This document shows positions 21,588-42,538 of a stretch of DNA of 64,000 bases, one piece after another. The stretch's first letter is position 1; the number at the start of each line of letters is the position of its first letter. The stretch covers positions 1,723,092-1,787,091 of the forward strand of contig NZ_CP014854.1 in assembly GCF_002214365.1 (NCBI RefSeq). Reading direction: 5' to 3'. The position numbers were made by a program, and so were the translations under genes. Under the pieces are notes generated by a model, which had not been told where the DNA came from, ran no database searches, and was given only the letters and a program-made list of their open reading frames with translations. This DNA comes from Thermococcus celer Vu 13 = JCM 8558 (GTDB lineage: Archaea; Methanobacteriota_B; Thermococci; Thermococcales; Thermococcaceae).

Positions 21588-21645
21588 AATCATCACCGCA
21601 AGGTTTAAATACTACAACTTAGTATTCCCTTGACGGGTGTTAGTA

Positions 21646-21810
21646 ATGCCTAAAGCGACTTTTGTCATCGACAGTGAAACGCTTGAAGAATTCAAAAGGC
21701 TGGCCAAAGAACGCTATGGGAACAAGAGGGGAGTCCTAAGCATTGCAGTTGAGGAAGCAATAAAAGATTGGATTAAGAAAACAAGAAAGGAACTCGAAAA
21801 TGCCGAATGA
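21646..21810 (+). CDS. Small ribbon-helix-helix (CopG/Arc-like) protein linked to tnpB
   Basis: 54 aa: a beta strand (KATFVIDSETLEEFKRLAK), then helices with GVLSIAVEEAIKDWIKK, the standard RHH pattern in which the N-terminal strand reads DNA as a dimer. A TATA-like GGTTTAAATAC at 21602-21612 would start transcription about 14 bases before the ATG. Its last four codons overlap tnpB by 11 bp, so the two are co-translated. It is likely an autoregulator of the element, by analogy with RHH proteins that repress their own operons. It is short enough to be missed by length-limited gene calling. Confidence 0.8.
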   Translation: MPKATFVIDSETLEEFKRLAKERYGNKRGVLSIAVEEAIKDWIKKTRKELENAE

Positions 21811-22969
21811 AACGATTAAACTCACCGCAAAATTCAAGCTCAAAGAGATTCCAGACGGGTTAGATGGTCTATTCCAAACTTACCGTGAAATAGTGAACAC
21901 CCTCATCACCCACGCTCACGAAAACAACATCACCAGCTTCTACCGGCTGAAAAAGGAGACTTACAAGAGCCTTCGCAAAGAGTACCCGGAACTACCAAGC
22001 CACTACCTTTACACGGCCTGCCAGATGGCAACGGCAATCTACAAGAGTTACCGCAAAAGAAACAAAAAGGGAAAGGCAAAGGGGAGGCCAGTCTTCAGGA
22101 AGGAAGTCATAATGCTCGATGATCATCTCTTCAAGCTCGACCTCGACGGAAAGATAATAAAACTCTCCACTCCTAACGGGAGGATTTCGCTGGAGTTTTA
22201 CCCCGCAAGGTACCACGAGAAGTTCCGGGGCTGGAAGGTTGGGCAGGCCTGGTTGGTTAAAACCCCAAAAGGCGTCTTCGTGAACGTCGTCTTCTCCACG
22301 GAAGTTGAAGTTGGAGAAGCAAAGACTTTCGTCGGCGTTGACCTGAACGAGAACAATGTAACCCTGAGCCTCCCGGATGGTGAGTTCGTGCAAATCATCA
22401 CTCATGAGCGTGAAATCAGGACGGGTTACTTCCTGAAGAGGCGGAGGATTCAGAAGAAGTTTAGGGCAGGCAAGAAGCGGGAGAAACTCCTCGAGAAGTA
22501 TGGGGGAAGAGAAAAGAACAGGCTGAACGACTTGTACCACAAAATAGCGAATAAGATTGTTGAACTGGCGGAGGAATACGGTGGAATAGCTTTGGAGGAC
22601 TTGACGAACATTCGGGATTCGATAAGGTATTCGGCTGAAATGAACGGGAGGCTTCACCGCTGGAGTTTCCGAAAGTTGCAGTCAATCATCGAGTACAAGG
22701 CGAAGTTGAGGGGCGTGAGTGTTGTTTTTGTTGATCCGGCTTACACTTCTTCCCGGTGCCCGGTATGTGGGGGAAAGTTAAGCCCGAATGGGTACCGGCG
22801 GGTGAAGTGTGAGTGTGGTTTTGAGGCTGATAGGGACGTTGTTGGGAGCTGGAACATCCGCTTGAGAGCCCTGAAGATGTGGGGAGTGCCCGTTCCCCCC
22901 GAAAGCCACCCGATGAAGATGGGAGGGTGGAAGGTTGGCCGTAATGATGTTTACAAAAGTTACGGCTAA
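21800..22969 (+). CDS. tnpB: TnpB RNA-guided nuclease (IS605-type OrfB)
   Basis: 389 aa, with the RuvC-like catalytic triad apparently intact: D181 in FVGVDLNENN, E266 in GGIALEDLTN and D344 in CGFEADRDVVGSWNI. The inserted zinc finger is complete (RCPVCGG and KCECGF, Cys 320, 323, 337, 339). TnpB proteins are RNA-guided DNA nucleases that use an omega-RNA from the right end of their element, and are the ancestors of Cas12. The start ATG overlaps the RHH gene. The last 20 codons coincide with two hairpins that also belong to the candidate omega-RNA, so coding and RNA structure share these bases. It looks functional. Confidence 0.95.
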   Translation: MPNETIKLTAKFKLKEIPDGLDGLFQTYREIVNTLITHAHENNITSFYRLKKETYKSLRKEYPELPSHYLYTACQMATAIYKSYRKRNKKGKAKGRPVFRKEVIMLDDHLFKLDLDGKIIKLSTPNGRISLEFYPARYHEKFRGWKVGQAWLVKTPKGVFVNVVFSTEVEVGEAKTFVGVDLNENNVTLSLPDGEFVQIITHEREIRTGYFLKRRRIQKKFRAGKKREKLLEKYGGREKNRLNDLYHKIANKIVELAEEYGGIALEDLTNIRDSIRYSAEMNGRLHRWSFRKLQSIIEYKAKLRGVSVVFVDPAYTSSRCPVCGGKLSPNGYRRVKCECGFEADRDVVGSWNIRLRALKMWGVPVPPESHPMKMGGWKVGRNDVYKSYG

Positions 22970-22977
22970 CCAGAACG
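22905..22977 (+). ncRNA. Candidate omega-RNA 3' scaffold overlapping the tnpB end
   Basis: Two hairpins sit at the right end. CCACCC (22906-22911) pairs with GGGTGG (22925-22930). GGTTGGCCGTAA (22933-22944) pairs with TTACGGCTAACC (22960-22971), with one G-U pair. In TnpB systems the RNA from this region holds the protein and the guide is the flanking DNA immediately after the element, here 22978 onward. The first hairpin is preserved by compensatory changes in the solo copy at 41.6 kb. Transcript boundaries cannot be seen from sequence. Confidence 0.6.
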
Positions 22978-23655
22978 GCATCTTTCATAGACGTCGGGGC
23001 CAAGTCGACGGCGCCCTACCTCGAGACCCAGATCCCGGTGGAGGAGGAGATAAGACGGGCGGTCTGGGCCGTTAAGGCCATCAGAGACCAGGTCGATGTC
23101 CCGGTAAGTATAGACACGACCAGCGCGAGGGTTGCCGAGGAGGCGTTAAACGCGGGAGCGAACGTGATAAACGACGTCACGGGTCTGAAGGGAGATCCAA
23201 GAATGGCAGAGGTGGCCAGGGAGTACGGGGCCCCGGTCGTGCTCTGCGCCCACGGGGAGGTGCGGGACTTCAGCGACCCGGTTGGAACGGTGATGGAGTT
23301 CCTGAAGGGGAGCATAACCGTAGCCGAAAAGCACGGTATCGAGGAGGTGGCGGTTGACCCTGCCATAGGCTTCCTCCGCCCGGAGTGGCCGCCCTGGTAC
23401 GAGTGGGATTCAAAGGTCATAGCCAACATGAACCTTCTGAAGACCTTCGGAAGGCCGATACTCGTCGGGGTATCGAGGAAGTCCTTCATCGGGGCGATAA
23501 CCGGAAGGAAGGACCCGGCGGAGAGACTCGCGGGGAGCCTGTCGGCAACAGCGATAGCCGTCCTCAAGGGTGCGAACATCGTCAGGACGCACGACGTTAA
23601 AGAGACAAGGGACGCGGTGGCGGTTGCTTCCTTTATCGGGCGCTTTTCGCCTTGA
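22978..23655 (+). pseudogene. Dihydropteroate synthase-like gene, 3' fragment
   Basis: Resumes in frame as ASFIDVGAKSTAPYLETQIP and carries the rest of the DHPS TIM barrel: PVSIDTTSARVAEEALNAGA, INDVTGLKGDPRMAE, VDPAIGFLRPEW, PILVGVSRKSFIGAIT and the C-terminal ATAIAVLKGANIVRTHDV. All pterin-site motifs except the region lost at the insertion are present. An in-frame GTG at 23038 could start a 205-aa truncated protein, but without the first strand and GVINVSPESF it should be inactive. Between RDDE of the 5' part and ASFID, family members have roughly a dozen more residues, so a short deletion seems to accompany the insertion. The 3' end overlaps the convergent AI-2E transporter gene. Confidence 0.85.
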
Positions 23656-38980: not shown

Positions 38981-40858
38981 ATGAGAATGCTTCTGATACA
39001 CAGCGACTATTTGGAGTACGAGGTCAGGGATAAGGCCATCAAGAACCCCGAACCGATAAACGAGGAGCAAAGGAAGGGCCGCCTCGATGAGGTTCTGGCG
39101 GTCTTTGCGAGCGTCGAGAAGGTCGACGAGGTCAACCCCGATGAGGTCGTCGAGAAGGCCCTCGCGGAAATAAAGGACGTCGCGGGTCAGGTTAAGGCCG
39201 AGAGGGTCTTCGTATACCCCTTCGCCCACCTCAGCAGCGACCTGGCGAAGCCCGACGTTGCCCTCGATGTCCTCAGGAAGCTCGAGGAGAGGCTTAAGGA
39301 GGAGGGTTTCGAGGTCAGGCGCGCCCCCTTCGGCTACTACAAGGCCTTCAGGCTGAGCTGCAAGGGGCACCCTCTGGCGGAGCTCAGCAGGACGGTGGTT
39401 CCCGAGGGCGAGGTGAACAAGGAGGAGCGCAACGTGGCCCTCGAGAAGGAAGAGGAGCTTAAGAGCTACTGGTACGTCCTCACGCCCGAGGGCGAGCTCA
39501 TCGACGTGGAGAAGTTCGACTTCACGGGGCATGAGAACCTCAGGAAGTTCGCCAACTACGAGATAAGCAAGAACAGGGTGGCCGATAGGGAGCCGCCCCA
39601 CGTTAAGCTGATGCTCGAGCACGAGCTGGTGGATTACGAACCCGGAAGCGACGCCGGAAACCTCAGGTACTATCCGAAGGGCAGGCTCATCAAGGGTCTC
39701 CTCGAGCAGTACGTCACCGAGAAGGTCGTCGAGTACGGGGCGATGGAGGTCGAGACGCCGATAATGTACGACTTCGAGCACCCGGCCCTCGAGAAGTACC
39801 TCAACAGGTTCCCGGCGAGGCAGTACGTCGTCAAGAGCGGCGACAAGAAGTTCTTCCTGCGCTTCGCCGCCTGCTTTGGCCAGTTCCTCATAAAGAAGGA
39901 CGCCACGATAAGCTACCGCAACCTGCCTCTCAGGATGTACGAGCTCACGCGCTACTCCTTCAGGAGGGAGAAGAGCGGCGAGCTGTCCGGGCTGAGGAGG
40001 CTCAGGGCCTTCACGATGCCCGATATGCACACCGTCGCCAGAGACCTCAAGCAGGCCATGGACGAGTTCAAGAAGCAGTACAAGCTCAGCATGGAGGTTC
40101 TAAAGGGAGTCGGGCTAACGCCCGAGGACTACGAGGTGGCGATACGCTTCACGAGGGACTTCTGGGAGGAGCACGGGGACTTCATCGTCGAGCTGGCCAA
40201 GATAATCGGCAAGCCCGTCCTCGTGGAGATGTGGGACCAGAGGTTCTTCTACTTCATACTGAAGTTCGAGTTCAACTTCGTGGACAACCTCGACAAGGCC
40301 GCCGCGCTGAGCACCGTCCAGATAGACGTCGAGAACGCCGAGAGGTTCGGCATAACCTACTACGACGAGGAAGGGAAGGAGAGGTACCCGCTCATCCTCC
40401 ACTGCTCGCCGAGCGGTGCCATAGAGCGGGTTATGTACGCGATACTCGAGAAGCAGGCGAAGCTCCAGGCCAGGGGGGTTAAACCAGCCTTCCCGCTCTG
40501 GCTCAGCCCGATACAGGTTAGGGTGATCCCGGTCAGCGACGAGGTCCTCGACTACGCGCTCTACGTTGCAGGAAAACTTGAGGGGGCGAAGATAAGGGTC
40601 GACGTGGACGACACCGGCGACAGGCTCAACAAGAAGATAAGGAAGGCCGAGAAGGAGTGGATTCCCTACATAATCGTCGTCGGCAGGAATGAAAAAGAGG
40701 GGGACACGATAACCGTCAGGAGGAGGAGCGACGGGAAGCAGGTAGAGATGAGGCTCGAGGACCTCGTAAGGGAGATAAGGTCCCAGACGGAGGGGTTCCC
40801 CTACAGGGCAAGGCCCCTGCCGCTTCTCCTGTCGAGGAGGCCGAAGTTCAGGGGTTGA
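38981..40858 (+). CDS. thrS: Threonyl-tRNA synthetase (archaeal type)
   Basis: 625 aa from ATG 38981 ([20 protein letters not shown]). The N-terminal domain of about 140 residues is the archaeal D-aminoacyl-tRNA deacylase-like editing module ([32 protein letters not shown]) that clears Ser-tRNA(Thr). The class II core follows, with motif 2 [19 protein letters not shown] and zinc-ligand Cys in FAACFG. Motif 3 lies near [17 protein letters not shown], and a C-terminal anticodon-binding domain includes [18 protein letters not shown]. Earlier in-frame starts lie upstream of GGTGGTTAGG and are unlikely. Confidence 0.96.
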
Positions 40859-41591
40859 GCTCTCTCATCTTCCGTATTTTAAGTTTTTCCACGCCCTTCT
40901 CCTTTGTAACGCGGAACGAGTACGTCTCGGGTTCAAAGTCCTCGTAGGGGGCGGATATCAGGTACAGGGTCTCCTTGAGACCGTTCTCCTCCAGCCAGGA
41001 CCTGGCGACGATTACGTAGTCGCTCACCCCCGAGGCCCACGCCACGAACCTCTCCGAGACGACGTCCCGGTTTATCGACTGCGCCAGTACCGAATCCGGG
41101 AGTTCCTGACTTTTGGAAGCGAGGGTCTGGTTGAGGAGCCTGAGGGTGCTCTCCTCACCGAGGAGGAGCGAAACTCCATCGAGCGTGTGGATCAGTCTGA
41201 AAACTGGTCTTCCCTCCATAAACTCCCGTAGATGAGTGAAGTAAATCCGGTCTATCTTCGGGTTGAGGGTCTCCGGCTCGACATTGTCCAGGTAGAATAC
41301 GTTCGGGAGGGGTTTCTTTGACCCGTACCTTGTACCGAAGAGGTCTATAATCGCAAGGTTTCCGTTCTCCAGTTCCCTCTCCACGTCGAGGCCAACCGTG
41401 CCGGCTTTCCTCATGAAAAGGCTCAACGGTCCCGAGTAGTTGGACACGATGGCAAAGTAACCCCTTTCAACCGCATGCCTGAGGAGAAGGAGGGGGATCC
41501 TCCACGCGGAAGAATAGGCATCGTAGATGATGCTTATGGTGGAACCCGGGAGGTACTCCCCTCGGAAGAGGTCGAGGATGTTCTTCTCCAT
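40848..41591 (-). CDS. DUF257-like Thermococcales protein
   Basis: 247 aa with the pattern of a RecA/KaiC-like alpha-beta fold that has lost the Walker A loop: [21 protein letters not shown] where a P-loop would sit, then [21 protein letters not shown] and [16 protein letters not shown] in the Walker B region. This matches my recollection of the DUF257 family, confined to Thermococcales and of unknown function. The 3' end overlaps thrS convergently by 11 bp. Its start (GGGAGGGATATGA before ATG 41591) lies 38 bp from the solo tnpB remnant. Confidence 0.7.
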
Positions 41592-41629
41592 TCATATCCC
41601 TCCCGGAGTTGGGGGAATGGGTGGCTCAC

Positions 41630-41790
41630 CCGTTCTGGTTAGCCGTAACTTTTGTAAACATTGTTACGGTTAACCTTCCCTCCTCAGGCTTCATTGGAGG
41701 GCTTTCGGGGGGAACGGAAACTCCCCACATCTTCCGTTTCCAGCCCCCATTCGGGCTTAAAACCCCACATATCGGGGACATCAACAGTTA
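41630..41790 (-). mobile_element. Solo right end of a tnpB element (candidate stand-alone omega-RNA)
   Basis: The minus strand matches the last ~100 bp of the intact tnpB element (22876-22978), ending at the identical ...CTAACCAGAACGG. It also contains shorter upstream matches (GTATGTGGGG-like and TTAAGCCCGAATGGG) separated by internal deletions. No ORF or left end remains. Both 3' hairpins persist. The first has two compensated base changes (CCCTCC/GGAGGG here against CCACCC/GGGTGG in the intact copy). The next ~20 bases on the minus strand, 41629 downward, would be the guide. Confidence 0.8.
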
Positions 41791-41807
41791 AACACGGAGC
41801 TATTTAA

Positions 41808-41840
41808 AGTTTTTTTGAAAAACAAAAATATTCAAATGTT
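41808..41840 (-). terminator. T-rich transcription terminator of the TIP26 gene
   Basis: On the minus strand, just past the stop at 41855, the sequence runs ATATTTTTGTTTTTC then more T. Clusters of T are what archaeal polymerase uses to terminate. The tract separates the TIP26 gene from the tnpB remnant. Confidence 0.5.
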
Positions 41841-41854
41841 GTGACAGTTACTAT

Positions 41855-42538
41855 TTAGAGAACAGCCCCCTTCACGCCCTCTTTTATCTCGTTGAGGAAG
41901 TCCTTCGCCTCCTCGCTGAACTCCTTCAGGGGTACCTCCCTGCCGGACGTATCGTAGACCTTCCCGTCCTGGAAGTTTATCTCGAAGACCTCGTAGCGTT
42001 CCTCGCTCTGCTCGTAATGCTTTATCCCGTGTCCCTTAAGGTGTGTCTCGAGGCTCTCGACGTCAACGTACTTCCCGCACTTGGGGCACCTGTAGAACTG
42101 CCAGAACACGTAGTCCTGTCCCGCGAGCATGTTGTTCTTTACGTGCTCGAGGAAGGCCCCACCGAGGTACTCGTAGAAGTCCTCCTGAATCAGCCTTCCA
42201 TCACCCTCGACCACCCTGAACCCGCTCCAGATGATGTGGTCGTTTATGTCCGCGAGCGTCGTCTTGAGGTAGCGGTAGGTGAGGATGAAAACCCCGTTGT
42301 GAACCAGGAAGACGCTCCTATCGGGAACGGCTATTATCCTGATGCCATCGCCGTTACCGTTCTCGGCCATCTCCCTGGCGTGCTCCCTGTTATCCGCGAC
42401 CTCTATGATAACCTTCACGTTGCTCTTCTTGTGAACACCGATTATGCTCTCTCCCGTGATCTCCCAGTGGTAATCGTCTATGTACCTCACCTGGGCGTAG
42501 ACCTTTTTGATCCTTGGACTCAGCTCACCGTAGGTCAT
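41855..42538 (-). CDS. TBP-interacting protein (TIP26 type)
   Basis: 227 aa, closely resembling the T. kodakarensis protein TIP26, which binds TATA-binding protein and can block its DNA contact. The N-terminal two thirds ([37 protein letters not shown]) is an alpha-beta nuclease-like fold without an obvious active site. A C2-type zinc finger follows (CPKCGKYVD...HLKGHGIKH, about residues 150-175), then a helical tail. Restricted to Thermococcales. ATG 42538 has GGTGGTGAT upstream. Confidence 0.9.

Follow-up and report, generated by a model that had tools for sequence, protein, structure and literature searches.

A protein-free IS607-type element of Thermococcus celer that probably carries a TnpB ωRNA gene and borrows both of its enzymes

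Within the window, the whole 64,000-nucleotide stretch of Thermococcus celer DNA analysed here, the minus strand from 41630 to 41868 is a complete non-autonomous element of the IS607 family, 239 nt in length. This element is probably a single representative of an ancient protein-free IS607 element that is still mobile, whose cargo is the gene for a TnpB ωRNA and whose two enzymes are both borrowed. The reading as a selfish guide-RNA transposon is favored because of the ends, the copies, the empty sites in relatives, the fixed spacing of a TATA element, a covarying fold, and the presence of both TnpA and TnpB in the genome. A preliminary description had taken the same DNA for a solo right end of a tnpB element, possibly a domesticated guide RNA; its idea of a stand-alone ωRNA holds in kind but not in detail, and nothing points to domestication. 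The parts of the element, and a tnpB gene elsewhere in the window, are as follows.

21800-22978, plus strand: tnpB gene for a 389-aa protein, with an ωRNA and a right end of its own; D, E, and D residues intact; could supply TnpB in trans
41630-41868, minus strand: non-autonomous IS607-type element with an ωRNA only and a GG core at both ends; boundaries common to 5-7 other copies in the genome
41847-41868, minus strand: left end GGGCTGTTCTCTAAATAGTAAC (short form GGGCTGTT), shared among copies and of the same type as in elements with TnpA and TnpB
within 41847-41868, minus strand: first GG of the left end, the presumed IS607 crossover core
41801-41808, minus strand: TATA box TTTAAATA, part of a predicted promoter inside the element, from sequence
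about 41775-41781, minus strand: predicted transcription start
41774-41779, minus strand: 5' arm of stem P1, GTCCCC; P1 covaries in short elements
41743-41748, minus strand: 3' arm of P1, GGGGGC; P1 is found in full-length elements too, with another sequence
about 41749-41772, minus strand: fragment of the tnpB sequence that encodes the zinc finger, now forming the loop of P1 (BLAST match to 22756-22792)
41696-41701, minus strand: 5' arm of stem P3, CCCTCC, the hairpin singled out in the preliminary description
41678-41683, minus strand: 3' arm of P3, GGAGGG
41663-41675, minus strand: 5' arm of the terminal stem P4, from sequence and fold
41637-41649, minus strand: 3' arm of P4, from sequence and fold
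41630-41637, minus strand: right end CAGAACGG with GG core; nearly invariant, with variable flank beyond
41610-41629, minus strand: host flank, the would-be guide (GTGAGCCACCCATTCCCCCA), positioned from the anatomy

As had been described, the minus strand retains the 3' scaffold of a tnpB element, there is no ORF, and the exact end CAGAACGG lies at 41637-41630 with flank from 41629. The terminal hairpin, given as 12 bp, is present as a 13-position stem (41663-41675 with 41637-41649) in which 12 positions are paired and one is mismatched. Missed at the time was the left end: GGGCTGTTCTCTAAATAGTAAC reaches 41868 and is common to five other copies in the genome, which rules out an orphan right end. 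The region matches the 21.8-kb element at 86% over 106 nt (BLAST, E 9e-30), and the predicted fold of its RNA has a z of -3.4 relative to shuffles; together these argue that the likeness of the scaffold is not due to chance.

When the region is compared with the whole source genome (G000; 1.867 Mb, a single contig), it is found at 13 places, of which five are full-length tnpB elements and eight are short; the genome has about seven complete copies of the window type. Most of the short copies, once aligned, have the right end, the left end, and everything between in common; the left end alone, used as a query, finds six places. The genome has one serine recombinase (IS607 TnpA), which lies directly upstream of a tnpB and overlaps it, and no Y1 TnpA transposase, so IS605-type mobilisation is ruled out. 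All five tnpB copies have intact D-E-D residues. The complete IS607-type element of this genome (L068) has HTH_17 and Resolvase domains, the left end GGGCTGTCC, and the right end CAGAACGG; complete elements of this type, 1.83-1.86 kb in length, are present in many related genomes of the genus. The window element has the same left and right end sequences, GG core, and 3'-end ωRNA as the IS607 family, and its ends match those of two complete elements with TnpA and TnpB (L068, and L054 in G025). It differs in lacking both tnpA and tnpB, in its length of 239 nt, in the promoter-like element beside the RNA, and in having another P1.

The tnpB at 21.8 kb is itself of an unusual form. At 21600-22978 it is preceded, instead of by tnpA, by a 54-aa ORF (21646-21810) that has a ribbon-helix-helix-like look and no match in Pfam. 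The left end present in two other copies (L069 and L071) has been lost here, and the insertion disrupts a dihydropteroate-synthase-like gene. A class of elements of 1.43-1.46 kb (L069, L071, L088, L094, L106, L113, L117, L120, L123, L125, and L141), found in at least nine genomes, has the same small ORF together with tnpB, lacks tnpA, and shares the type of left end; this makes three forms of one IS607 system.

Several observations indicate that the short elements move. In five relatives (G035, G058, G018, G024, and G059) the same two genes are adjacent and the element is absent, and the insertion point in all five is a G-run. The upstream gene (42538-41855) encodes a TBP-interacting protein (PF15517 and PF21664) and is present in 61 of the 61 genomes of the genus that were searched; in T. 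celer its last codons and stop (VKGAVL-stop) are supplied by the left end of the element. In another genome (G076), three 264-nt short elements are identical and occupy three unrelated sites, and a second subfamily has two identical copies and one nearly so; the identical copies at unrelated sites fix the boundaries exactly. The loci concerned (L233-L238) have the look of a recent burst. GG stands at both extremities of nearly every element, and no longer duplication of the target accompanies insertion; the flank is uninformative at the left junction, and at the right the nearly invariant end gives way to variable flank. This is the arrangement expected for both short and full elements if, as reported for IS607, crossover takes place at GG (PMC10711439). 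No copies were found on plasmids, in phages, or in IMG/VR.

The window element belongs to a widespread family. About 57 short elements were inspected, from four Thermococcaceae genera and 24 genomes in all: more than 30 are from 14 genomes of the genus and 19 from ten genomes of three other genera, with five more in G076. They are about 220-265 nt long, mostly near 260, and have the order left end, T-rich stretch, a CGTAATTTTTAAATA-like TATA element, P1, a tnpB-derived core, P2, P3, P4, and right end. The TATA-like box lies 33-36 nt upstream of P1, the first RNA stem, in most of them and 25 nt upstream of it in the window subfamily, in which P1 is cut to about 6 bp and P4 contains one mismatch; with this shorter P1, the start would still be expected at the paired part despite the 25-nt spacing. 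Of 94 genomes of the order, 59 have matches to a covariance model, and these fall in five of the six genera; the numbers count ωRNA rather than short elements, since the model matches full-length elements too. A search of 115 genomes of the phylum found the ωRNA in no genus other than those five.

The structure of this RNA appears to be conserved by compensation. In 31 short elements, the proposed pairs are formed in 93.5% of cells as opposed to 88.1% in shuffled alignments and 33-52% when the partners are slid by one to three columns, and double-sided changes number 75 versus 26.7 in shuffles; because the alignment rows are related, the shuffle controls overstate these differences. Pairs with changes in both arms number 10 versus 8.6, which is not above shuffles (120 of 500 were as high). 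Three of the six P3 pairs are changed on both sides. As had been noted, the P3 arms are CCCTCC and GGAGGG in the window and CCACCC and GGGTGG in the 21.8-kb element, with two positions different on each arm and pairing preserved. The presence of the compensated hairpin in a different full-length tnpB element had been named, together with the absence of any transcript, as what would count against a stand-alone ωRNA. The first of these two is observed: the variant occurs in four other copies in the genome and in seven of 43 full-length tnpB elements from other genomes, which rules out a compensation unique to the window copy. The 43 full-length elements have CCCCAC/GTGGGG, CCAGCC/GGCTGG, CCCTCC/GGAGGG, CCACCC/GGGTGG, and others, and 34 short elements have the same main variants. 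As judged from these alignments, the P3 hairpin does covary across the family in the manner of a real RNA stem, and the compensated hairpin of the window copy is evidently an inherited trait of its subfamily. In full-length elements P1 is a 9-bp stem with CCTGTGCCC/GGGCACAGG-like arms, paired in 96% of cells; in short elements its arms are GCAGTCTCC/GGAGACTGC-like, and it covaries with a sequence quite unlike that of the full-length P1. It is the same stem in another sequence, one not obtainable by simple deletion from tnpB.

These features bear on whether the short elements could be plain MITE-like elements, mobile DNA whose structure serves only for recognition by TnpA and which makes no working ωRNA. 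The comparison has merit in that the element is clearly mobile, is short (239 nt here, about 220-265 elsewhere), non-coding, and multi-copy, and has the ends of its IS607 parent. The term itself applies only loosely, since terminal inverted repeats are absent (GGGCTGTT versus CAGAACGG), as they are in the parent IS. The distribution of TnpB is also in keeping with such an element. A cognate TnpB is found in 45 of the 59 genomes with the ωRNA and is lacking in 14, an association that is not independent evidence because the RNA model also matches full-length elements. Five of the 14 are nearly complete genomes (G064, G066, G068, G074, and G086) that have short elements, ranging from high-scoring to decayed under a model trained mostly on elements from genomes with TnpB, and no cognate TnpB; consequently, TnpB is not needed for mere persistence. 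Against a purely MITE-like element, the most telling conservation is internal rather than terminal, in the TATA box at fixed spacing and in a P1 of other sequence than that of tnpB. In addition, the TnpA of IS607 belongs to the serine recombinases and has double-stranded DNA as its substrate, so that RNA-like covariation would not be expected for it. An element of this kind without a working ωRNA is thus unlikely.

A dead remnant of a full-length element, with its compensation accidental or inherited, would account for the hairpin variant passed down in the subfamily and for the tnpB scrap within the element. It fails to account for the intact ends, promoter-like element, and fold, or for the same anatomy in dozens of copies in four genera, which is not that of an individual decay product, and for the family it is contradicted by the identical, fresh copies in G076; this explanation is very improbable. 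A related proposal, that the short elements derive from the full elements of their own genome, holds only partly. Over 80 nt, the right end of one short copy (L078) is a single base different from the full-length copies of the same genome, and for 13 of 31 short elements the nearest full-length right end comes from their own genome, where 2.6 are expected; eight of the 13 are from G000. Right ends probably recombine between the short and full classes, as their sequences suggest. One genome (G011) has a single full-length element of the family, at 1.654 Mb.

The preliminary description suggested a domesticated guide RNA working in trans with TnpB; such a guide would have a fixed host or phage target. 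Part of this stands: the element has the look of a stand-alone ωRNA with an intact fold, and five TnpB copies with D-E-D residues are available to it in trans. Domestication would imply a fixed single locus, lost mobility, and a conserved guide, and what is found is a mobile, multi-copy element with two ends, its insertion absent in five relatives, and a flank that differs from copy to copy. The 16 nt beyond the right end match their own locus only at up to two mismatches, leaving no second target in G000, and the 20-mer is absent from IMG/VR. A guide unique to its own flank argues against a fixed regulatory target and fits self-homing. Mobility, empty sites, and the absent second target rule out a domesticated single guide RNA for practical purposes, and we regard this reading as having very little chance of being correct. 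The data fit a guide that is simply the flank of the insertion site and hence is aimed at the empty site. It is hardly credible that the element is a leader regulator of the downstream gene (40848-41591): it does lie between two co-oriented genes with its promoter facing that gene, whose ribosome-binding region is within the flank, but relatives have the gene pair without this lineage-specific insertion, and any effect would be an incidental supply of a promoter.

The favored reading, a protein-free IS607 element with an ωRNA gene as cargo, suggests the following mechanism. The RNA would start just before P1 and continue through the right end into the flanking DNA; it would then bind TnpB encoded elsewhere, with the flank serving as guide. 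TnpA, which is present in the genome, would act in trans to excise and move the element. After excision, the rejoined flank, consisting of GG and then the guide-matching sequence, would be cut by TnpB, and repair from the sister chromosome would restore the element. For the window RNA with TnpB, the predicted target is GG adjoining GTGAGCCACCC (GTGAGCCACCCATTCC); the bacterial IS607 TnpB of ISXfa1 has a GGG target-adjacent motif (PMC10711439). We infer transcription, TnpB binding, cleavage of the empty site, and restoration by repair from this arrangement, as we do mobilisation by TnpA in trans from the presence of one TnpA in the genome; homing of the empty site through TnpB supplied in trans is probable.

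Similar arrangements have been described elsewhere. The window family has the covarying scaffold up to the right end and the guide position in the flank that are characteristic of a TnpB ωRNA. Meers and colleagues (2023) are said to have described PATE, MITE-type elements without TnpB that have an ωRNA, and Zedaveinyte and colleagues (2024) reportedly found compact IStrons without protein genes. These are likewise non-autonomous, retain the ωRNA, and may rely on TnpA and TnpB supplied in trans, but they are bacterial and either IS605-type or intron-bearing, whereas the window family is archaeal and IS607-type, spans four genera, and has a conserved promoter-like element and a distinct 5' stem. 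Comparable ωRNA-only elements of bacteria are thus, by these accounts, already known, and the IS607-type archaeal form is a variant. Altae-Tran and colleagues (2021) reportedly described stand-alone, trans-acting ωRNAs of IscB, which likewise lie away from the nuclease gene; the window ωRNA is contained in a transposable unit with both ends.

Within the Thermococcales, HgcC (RF00062) is likewise an RNA tied to transposase genes. In T. kodakarensis, HgcC1-3, which are transposase-locus RNAs, are expressed from internal promoters, expression of HgcC4 and HgcC5 comes from outside transposase genes, and the transposase gene TK1842 was 24th when genes of one library were ranked by reads (PMC4247193). 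The terminal hairpin and end sequence of HgcC differ from those of the window RNA, which the RF00062 model does not match at E up to 1; identity with HgcC was therefore rejected. Sub-threshold HgcC matches in some related loci fall outside the short elements. In two genomes of one genus such a match lies beside a short element (L210:1280-1417 and L199:1302-1438). From its appearance, HgcC may be the right-end RNA that goes with a different archaeal TnpB family.

For the family as a whole, the chances look about even that the ωRNA across the Thermococcaceae is a separate, ancient, selfish mobile gene, one that has a promoter of its own and a 5' stem built anew, and which would have split early from the tnpB-bearing elements, exchanged right ends with them, used TnpA and TnpB in trans, and sometimes outlasted its cognate TnpB. 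If this is true, the unit of spread is the guide RNA and not the protein. The window RNA matches no family in Rfam 15, and the short elements provide many natural pairs of guide and target along with a covariance model for an RNA family unmatched there. With a transposon of 240-265 nt in an order that includes genetically tractable species, one could test directly whether protein-free elements are retained through TnpB acting in trans.
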